A DNA stretch of 44,249 nucleotides from Secundilactobacillus malefermentans DSM 5705 = KCTC 3548. GTDB taxonomy: Bacteria > Bacillota > Bacilli > Lactobacillales > Lactobacillaceae. The stretch is taken from contig NZ_AZGJ01000015.1 of NCBI RefSeq assembly GCF_001436395.1, forward strand, positions 1 to 44,249, given 5' to 3'. Below, in pieces: positions 9,904-12,665 of this stretch. The notes below the pieces were generated by a model. It ran no database searches. It was not told the origin of the DNA and saw only the letters and a list, made by a program, of their open reading frames with translations. A program made the translations under genes and the position numbers. How positions within the stretch are numbered: the stretch's first letter is position 1; each line of letters starts with the position of its first letter.

Positions 9904-11181
9904 TTACTGTACACCACGTTTTTTATAAATACGATCGGCTAACCCTAGGAATGCCAAAATACTAATTCCGATTAGCGATGTAAACTTGGTTAGTCTATTT
10001 TCACTGGTTTGTGGCAATTTTGATTTTTGACCAAGGCTCTGAGTTGCCGAATCATGATTACCTTCAACTGGTTCTTGGGTTGAAGATAGTGAATCATGAT
10101 TTAAACTACTTTTAGCTTTCGTCTTTTTGTCAGTATTGCTATTTTTTGATTTTAATTGCTTTTTCTGATCTTTTTTGGTTAATTTTTTATTTGTTGTACC
10201 TAAAGTTGATTTGACTGATTTAGTTGGCTTTGAAATTGATGGGGTGAGTGGCTCCTGTTCCATTTTGTTGCTTGTCACATCGTTAGGTTTGAACTCTTTA
10301 AGGATTGAAATTTTGCGTTCCGGTTGGACTACTTCATTTTTCTTAACCTCTTCATTTGTTTGCGTGTCAGCATCAATGCCAAATACCTTATCCAAATTAG
10401 GTAGCTCATCTGTTTTCGAATCTGAATCAACTCCAGCTGGCTTGACCGAACCACCTGTTTGGACACCGGAATCAATCAATTCAACCTTGTCCGGTAATGT
10501 CGTTTGAGTGTCTTGATCAATGCTAGCAGGTTTGTCTGATTCTTTTTCTGAGCTAGTTTCATCATCTTTTTCATCAGGTAAAACAGGCTTCGTAATTTCC
10601 GCTATAAGGTCACCTTTATCTTTATCGTCCTCTGATTCTTTCTTTGGCTCTCCAGCGAGTTTGTATCTCAGAACAATCACCTGGTTTGGATCAGAAATGA
10701 TTCCCTTTTTACTGTCTGGATTTAATAGCTCATAGTTTGCCAATGATTCATCCGTCAGTTCATCAGTATTATATTTGCCACCCACCGTTGCCGTTTTAAA
10801 TTTTGACTCGGGTTTGATGCCATCCTTGGCCTCAGTTCCATCATTTTGAATTAACTGATATTTAACGCTTGGTGTTGCAGGATTTCCATCGTAAAAACTA
10901 CTATAGACTTGATCCTCCTTACTAGAGGTAATAAATATTGTGCTGGATTTTCTTGTATAATTTTTGATTTCCCCTAGAGGGTTATCCTGCTTTCCTGCTG
11001 GAAGATCCTTTTGGACTGAATCAAGTTGAATATCTTGCTTGCTCCCATCCGTGTTGACCACCCGTCCAACTGCATTCACCGTAACATGATACGTTTTTTC
11101 ATCCGCATGAGCGTTGACCACCATTTGACTGAATGCACATGTTCCTAAAACCATTGCCGAAACTACTTTAAATTTATTCAT
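9904..11181 (-). CDS. Sortase-anchored surface protein with LPQTSE signal, function unknown
   Basis: A 425-residue exported protein. Residues 1-26 are a signal peptide ending AHA. Residues about 29-180 form an N-terminal domain starting with TYHVTVNAVGRVV that I do not recognise. Residues about 180-380 are a highly charged Asp/Glu/Lys/Ser/Thr region with degenerate repeats (DQDTQT, DSGVQT, DSDSKT, DADTQT). The C-terminus has LPQTSE at 389-394, a membrane segment (about 401-417) and the positive tail RIYKKRG. LPQTxE is the sorting signal known from Lactobacillus plantarum-type sortase. It lies between eno and secG and is the least conserved gene here. Its ribosome binding site is inside the enolase terminator. 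It may be an adhesin or wall-associated protein; this is inference. Confidence 0.85.
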   Translation of the reverse strand: MNKFKVVSAMVLGTCAFSQMVVNAHADEKTYHVTVNAVGRVVNTDGSKQDIQLDSVQKDLPAGKQDNPLGEIKNYTRKSSTIFITSSKEDQVYSSFYDGNPATPSVKYQLIQNDGTEAKDGIKPESKFKTATVGGKYNTDELTDESLANYELLNPDSKKGIISDPNQVIVLRYKLAGEPKKESEDDKDKGDLIAEITKPVLPDEKDDETSSEKESDKPASIDQDTQTTLPDKVELIDSGVQTGGSVKPAGVDSDSKTDELPNLDKVFGIDADTQTNEEVKKNEVVQPERKISILKEFKPNDVTSNKMEQEPLTPSISKPTKSVKSTLGTTNKKLTKKDQKKQLKSKNSNTDKKTKAKSSLNHDSLSSTQEPVEGNHDSATQSLGQKSKLPQTSENRLTKFTSLIGISILAFLGLADRIYKKRGVQ

Positions 11182-11221
11182 AAAAAAACCTCCTTCGTAA
11201 GATTAATTACGAAGAAGGTTT
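11182..11221 (-). terminator. Enolase terminator overlapping the ribosome binding site of the surface-protein gene
   Basis: On the minus strand AACCTTCTTCGTAA (11207-11220) pairs with TTACGAAGGAGGTT (11187-11200) as a 14-bp stem with one G-U pair and a six-base loop, followed by seven Ts. The ATG of the surface-protein gene comes directly after the T-run. The only Shine-Dalgarno sequence for that gene, AAGGAGG, is the 3' arm of the hairpin. Confidence 0.9.
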
Positions 11222-11253
11222 CAAAAATCATCAAACTTTATTTATAAAGTTGA

Positions 11254-12585
<1,332 letters not shown>

Positions 12586-12665
12586 TTATGATTTTATTGC
12601 CTAACGGGAAAACATCCCGATTACCATTTTATAAGTTTACTACTGAACTTGCAATTATATTTTAC

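Follow-up and report, generated by a model that had tools for sequence, protein, structure and literature searches.

The hairpin leader between eno and a surface protein gene

The stretch of DNA analysed here (the window; 44,249 nt of Secundilactobacillus malefermentans DSM 5705) carries the enolase gene, eno, followed in the same direction by a gene for a secreted-looking surface protein. The features of the locus, in the order in which they would be transcribed, are:

11254–12573, minus strand: eno (enolase), the upstream gene, with a match in all 15 genomes of the genus
11225–11259, minus strand: weak A/T-rich hairpin from the eno stop to the main hairpin (fold), below our criterion for a separate terminator
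11229–11232, minus strand: GATG, the −35-like partner of the box, a weak match here, placed by the A-rich position in com promoters and eno elements
11207–11222, minus strand: hairpin 5' arm, GAAACCTTCTTCGTAA, complementary to the ribosome-binding site (sequence and fold)
11203–11211, minus strand: CGTAATTAA, putative late-competence (sigmaH/ComX-type) promoter box within the 5' arm and loop
11201–11206, minus strand: hairpin loop, TTAATC (fold)
11195–11198, minus strand: predicted transcription start zone, 5–8 nt past the box, by analogy with other −10 elements
11185–11200, minus strand: hairpin 3' arm, TTACGAAGGAGGTTTT, which holds the ribosome-binding site (sequence and fold)
11189–11195, minus strand: AAGGAGG Shine-Dalgarno sequence, predicted to be paired in read-through RNA
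11182–11188, minus strand: seven-T tract, the spacer to the start codon and a terminator-like tail
11181–11179, minus strand: ATG of the surface protein, with TTT between the 3' arm and the ATG
9904–11181, minus strand: 425-aa secreted-looking surface protein with an LPQTSE anchor motif (ORF translation)

The eno reading frame ends with TAA (11256–11254, minus strand), and the A/T-rich hairpin at this point is possibly a degenerate first terminator. The main hairpin (11222–11185) consists of 16 pairs, two of them G-U, rather than the 14 bp given in the original prediction. That AAGGAGG lies in its 3' arm, with seven Ts and then the ATG behind it, is confirmed. No other Shine-Dalgarno sequence was seen before the ATG, in agreement with the claim that this is the only ribosome site of the gene. 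An RNA of 111 nt folded with −26.2 kcal/mol (shuffle z −3.7; none of 200 shuffles equally stable) and contained the hairpin within its minimum structure. In read-through RNA, GGAGG has a predicted mean unpaired probability of 0.000 and an opening cost of 16.0 kcal/mol; in a short RNA, modelled with its 5' end 15 nt past the first base of the box, the predicted values are 0.50 and 1.2 kcal/mol. The first four of the seven Ts pair with GAAA of the 5' arm. A simple terminator scan of the window did not list this hairpin, probably because these four Ts sit inside its stem. An Rfam search of the window returned tRNA alone at the gathering score and nothing at the hairpin. Elsewhere on the minus strand, the gap from tpi to eno contains a short hairpin, CGGGATGTTTTCCCG (12605–12619), which precedes the ribosome site of eno.

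By eye, the surface protein has a signal peptide, an LPxTG-like motif, a hydrophobic tail and a basic end, and Pfam and NCBIfam searches with it gave nothing convincing. Matches were found in three of the 60 genomes searched, namely its own (G000), G014 and G013, and a further scan of genome contigs with the protein recovered no relative. The G013 match covers the C-terminal part only (E 9.9e-4). The overlap of hairpin and ribosome site, on whose presence in close relatives with the same gene the original prediction was staked, recurs in G014, the only clear homologue found (44% identical in the search; 49% over 194 positions). There, too, the gene directly follows eno and has a hairpin of its own, seven Ts and a GTG start, and the stem base, CCTCCTTC/GAAGGAGG, is unbroken where the window has G-U.

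In 10 of the other 13 genomes of the genus a secreted-looking gene lies within about 330 nt of eno; G002 and G006 have a different gene there, and the G008 contig ends 94 nt past eno. The ribosome-site hairpin is present in two of the 14 readable genomes (G000 and G014), and in the other 12 the eno terminator holds no ribosome site. Nine of these hairpin-free leaders were viewed in detail, and in each the next gene has a ribosome site of its own. A second enolase-like gene, 55% identical to the eno of the window, was noted on contig C98 of G000.

Conservation and predicted folding of the element

We scanned 397 genomes of the family with the pattern ACCTYCTT...AAGGAGGTTTTTT, using the pattern read backwards as the control. 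It occurred once each in nine genomes, and the control in none. A plausible start codon lies close downstream of all nine matches, which alone proves little because AAGGAGG mostly serves as a ribosome site in genomes of this kind; conservation across species is the stronger evidence. At five matches (L026–L030) a terminator-like 3' arm is the ribosome site of what appear to be thiT-like genes. The scan also yielded a third eno locus, in G246, a genome of a second genus that we take to be Lentilactobacillus. All 24 genomes of this genus were examined and one locus that ends at a contig edge (L158) was dropped; a secreted-looking gene with the same hairpin device lies behind eno in all 23 readable genomes. 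Together with G000 and G014 this gives 25 eno loci.

The order of the device is a 5' arm complementary to the ribosome site, a CGTA box, a loop, a 3' arm with GGAGG, at most loci a T run, and the start codon. The box reads CGGA at one locus of the second genus. Our locus count required CG(T/G)A upstream of GGAGG, through which no readable locus was lost. The products differ: MucBP domains were present in three of four proteins checked in the second genus, the counterpart at L153 (g14) matched Gram_pos_anchor, and the G246 protein aligns to that of the window mainly around the anchor. Since the downstream proteins differ in this way, the leader is better conserved than its product.

Across the 25 loci, the predicted cost of opening the ribosome site in read-through RNA was 6.7–19.9 kcal/mol (median about 15), at least 10 kcal/mol in 20 and below 10 in five, and in the short RNA it was 1.0–6.0 kcal/mol. 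The mean unpaired probability of the site in the short RNA was 0.04–0.78, and in seven loci it was still mostly paired, though weakly (below 0.3). When the upstream half was shuffled, none of 40 shuffles matched the opening cost in 20 loci; the remaining five gave 1 (L151), 1 (L156), 3 (L147), 4 (L155) and 11 (L168). None of 52 control leaders that carry the box (coiA, comGA and eno neighbours with no hairpin) reached 10 kcal/mol; coiA leaders L052 and L059, which have no ribosome-site match, were left out of this set, as were L016, L062, L074, L079, L185, L187, L188, L189 and L191. The predicted folding and the conservation at 25 loci thus lend support to the two layers of silencing originally proposed for the read-through RNA.

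Pairing with the 5' arm involves four of the five GGAGG bases in all 25 folds, and the A in 18. In 23 of 24 elements the two arms pair better with each other than the cross-species mean, and none of 2000 permutations was as stable, with relatedness not removed from this comparison; L149, whose element is identical to L148, was dropped. Stem position −5 before GGAGG varies with pairing kept (T-A in 15, G-C in 4 and C-G in 2 of 25), the kind of change that had been suggested as a check; in pair counts on a six-sequence alignment (A4, which left out L146, L147, L151, L155, L156, L164, L168, L004, L005 and others) covariation was not significant. Automatic consensus folding of all 24 aligned elements returned no pairs, which we attribute to MAFFT aligning the unequal arms by the box. 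L152, which has a long insert, was left out of alignments A1–A3.

A CG(T/G)ANNTA box before competence genes

The 5' arm and loop carry the sequence CG(T/G)ANNTA. Its bases C, G, A, T and A are kept in all 25 loci and the first T in 24, and in 18 of the 25 folds the first C does not pair. Because the bases are conserved even where unpaired, the box seems to be kept as a DNA sequence and not for pairing. CGTA also stands shortly before the ribosome site in all 12 leaders compared (nine hairpin-free leaders of the window's genus, G000, G014 and G246, with L016 set aside).

A scan of the window's genus for CGTAGTTAA followed by a ribosome site gave 18 matches, spread over 11 of 15 genomes; the pattern read backwards gave five. 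By our reading of the translations, seven lie before eno-adjacent genes, two before comEA, one before comFA and three before coiA; the remaining five precede a TagI-like gene, a glycosidase-like gene, a small secreted protein and, in two cases, no ORF. The strict pattern CGTANNTA occurs 10–60 nt before coiA in 14 of 15 genomes of the window's genus and 16 of 23 of the second genus. For comGA, 14 of 15 genomes of the window's genus have it no more than 75 nt from where the match begins; G000 has CGTATTTAT before both genes. As background, CGTANNTA preceded none of 117 other ORFs of at least 150 aa at loci of this kind, counted on both strands, many of which are not genes (L016 set aside). A first background count (box before 30 of 171 ORFs) was discarded, as it included eno-adjacent genes and motif-selected loci. 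An A-rich partner lies 18 nt upstream of the box: in 44 com promoters A is found at −21, −20 and −19 from the box in 27, 32 and 31, respectively, and in the 25 eno elements at −21 in 18 and at −20 in 22. Positions −21 to −19 have the spacing of a −35 element.

The case for the box depends on where it stands, before known competence genes, and not on genome-wide enrichment. CGTARTTAA occurs 49 times in G000, against 139 for the backwards control, and a loose pattern of box, ribosome site and start codon was not enriched (7 versus 10 in the control for G000, 15 versus 10 for G014 and 6 versus 11 for G246); only the surface gene and comGA were recognised as expected targets among the seven G000 matches. 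Also in G000, CGTAATTAA precedes a GH25-lysozyme-like gene by about 28 nt and is found ahead of an L,D-transpeptidase-like gene as well (L088 and L091, contigs C1 and C13); these could be regulon members or chance. In both G000 and G014, CGTATTTAA stands about 29 nt before a metK-like gene (L121 and L144); the box is conserved there, yet the gene is no known competence target. CGTA resembles the −10 elements of ECF envelope-stress sigma factors, an identity that we rejected since com genes make up many of those that follow the box.

The rpmG-secE-nusG locus encodes a SigH-related sigma-70 factor in each of G000, G014 and G246; one such ORF (L193, 337–957) scored above the cut-off of TIGR02937 and matched SigH models below their cut-offs. 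According to a study of Latilactobacillus sakei, sigH lies at the same locus and its overexpression induces comGA-GF (including comGA and comGC), comEA, comFA and dprA (PMC3364868). The SigH-like factor at this locus and the com operons as targets are thus shared with that regulon, whereas its target table has no surface protein and no eno neighbour, and the word 'enolase' is absent from the main text (PMC3364868). The box is best read as a putative late-competence (sigmaH/ComX-type) −10 element. We regard it as unlikely that the CGTANNTA box instead serves a different regulator or sigma factor, or is an RNA signal, with competence control being indirect. This alternative draws on the L. sakei paper (PMC3364868), which gives no promoter motif (the words 'motif', 'consensus' and 'box' are absent from its main text), so that the link to sigmaH is an inference of ours, and on G000, where an ORF start lies close behind seven of 30 CGTARTTAA sites examined, of the 49. 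Against it, the position of the box before coiA, comGA, comEA and comFA, together with the spaced A-rich partner, is the kind of trace expected of a sigma factor.

A proposed promoter nested in a ribosome-site hairpin

We consider it probable that these 40 bases form a read-through-proof late-competence promoter whose start lies inside the ribosome-site hairpin. RNA running on from the eno operon would carry the whole hairpin and tend to terminate, and read-through RNA that is not terminated would have its ribosome site locked in the stem and give no surface protein. With an active competence sigma factor (sigmaH, ComX-like), polymerase would recognise, at the DNA level, the CGTAATTAA that spans 5' arm and loop and begin transcription about 5–8 nt past the box, inside the 3' half of the hairpin. 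The short RNA, with no 5' arm and its 5' end at or just before AAGGAGG, would form no stem and be translated. A transcription start between the stem and the ATG would, on this model, be the ON state, and the surface protein a presumptive competence product. Speaking against the model, the −35-like bases are poor in G000 (GATG). Three switches had originally been proposed; the competence-type box in the 5' arm and loop favours the start inside the hairpin, and nothing found favours an anti-terminator or an RNA-binding protein. The observation behind the original prediction is confirmed, and its regulatory interpretation partly supported.

A more economical explanation is that, the genome being compact, one hairpin serves as the eno terminator and that its 3' arm is by chance a ribosome site, with no regulation. 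By the same criterion, no separate eno terminator was found at eight of the 25 loci, namely G000, G014 and six others, where the hairpin may double as one. The other 17 keep the element despite a separate terminator-like hairpin of eno before it, which argues that its conserved job is hiding the ribosome site and speaks against the description of the hairpin as mainly an enolase terminator. The pairing of GGAGG with the 5' arm in every fold (four bases, with the A in 18) and the failure of 40 shuffles to match the opening cost in 20 loci weigh in the same direction, and we judge this explanation improbable. Chance overlap as such was rejected on the grounds of conservation.

Least probable is a conditional switch on the read-through RNA, in which an anti-terminator, an RNA-binding protein or a ligand opens the hairpin. 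Riboswitches usually act through a terminator combined with a hidden ribosome site, and five of the nine pattern matches (L026–L030) look like leaders of thiT-like genes behind what we take to be TPP-riboswitch-like sequence. Set against this, the eno stop is only 27–89 nt from the box in 24 of 25 loci, Rfam gave no match at the hairpin, and the conserved part is the CGTA box, which is also present before com genes that have no strong hairpin. A TPP or other riboswitch was rejected for the little room and the lack of an Rfam match.

In riboswitch expression platforms a single hairpin likewise stops transcription and translation; here no aptamer was found, and the proposed switch is promoter choice, not a ligand. 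Transcripts from outside the IS10, IS50 and IS200 transposase genes fold over the ribosome site, and the genes' own promoters start inside; here no mobile element was seen, and the arrangement is conserved at one chromosomal locus. The closest precedent is provided by the late leaders of phage T4 (gene e, soc and I-TevI), in which long transcripts also hide the site and the promoter also lies in the 5' strand, as predicted here. In phage T4, early transcripts of gene e hide the ribosome site and lysozyme is cut about 100-fold, while late promoters lie within the region encoding the 5' strand of the hairpin, so that late transcripts lack that strand and are translated (PMC3014915); the same leader logic is described for soc, I-TevI and relatives (PMC3014915, PMC2988022). 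The present case differs in its bacterial chromosomes, its place behind a glycolytic gene, its competence-type box and its T tract, which makes the hairpin terminator-like, and its start site is predicted. Our literature searches, confined to open-licence papers, turned up no description of such an arrangement for competence genes or the eno locus. If the model is correct, bacterial chromosomes have long employed a device familiar chiefly from phage T4 to silence developmental genes beside housekeeping genes. It would also provide a sequence signature by which the competence regulon can be recognised in lactobacilli, few of which are known to be transformable, would nominate a set of surface proteins as competence products, and would offer a compact natural leak-proof promoter for food-grade bacteria.

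We lean slightly towards a broader view, that Lactobacillaceae use a general, repeatedly deployed insulator in which competence promoters are nested in ribosome-site-hiding hairpins beside strong neighbours such as eno. It would keep the guarded genes (surface anchors, a cell-wall hydrolase and, in one genus, comGA) off outside competence, and the fast-changing eno-adjacent surface proteins would be unrecognised late-competence products. A covariance model built from six elements (R1) and run on the 397 family genomes matched 37 genomes in 12 of 40 genera at E ≤ 0.05, of which 18 belong to the second genus and 19 to others. The family scan with this model did not reach G000 and G014 at E ≤ 0.05; these were found in a small locus set only, and their hairpin is shorter. 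Of the 19 outside matches, 13 were examined, the six weaker ones (E 0.0196–0.0377) having no locus. The combination of box, stem over the ribosome site and start codon was present in four of the 13. Two of these are comGA leaders in g54 genomes, with the box in a weak hairpin (opening cost 7.5 and 6.1 kcal/mol). Three radC-like leaders in g22 (L214, L220 and L222) have a very stable ribosome-site hairpin (22.0 and 18.6 kcal/mol in the two folded) and carry, on the loop side and in place of the box, GCGAATTTG, possibly a variant competence box; the other six of the 13 look like ordinary terminators or do not fit. As a side observation, in L025 (G104) the ribosome site of a D-lactate-dehydrogenase-like gene is a terminator-like 3' arm behind a membrane-protein gene, with no CGTA box. 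In g23 (L225, G332) a box-in-hairpin leader with an opening cost of 16.7 kcal/mol precedes a 40-codon ORF, either a small protein or a broken gene. The fourth leader with the box in a hairpin, in g41 (L212, G196), has an opening cost of 19.4 kcal/mol and stands before a secreted-looking glucosaminidase/LysM gene, whose protein recalls the competence-linked murein hydrolases of streptococci.
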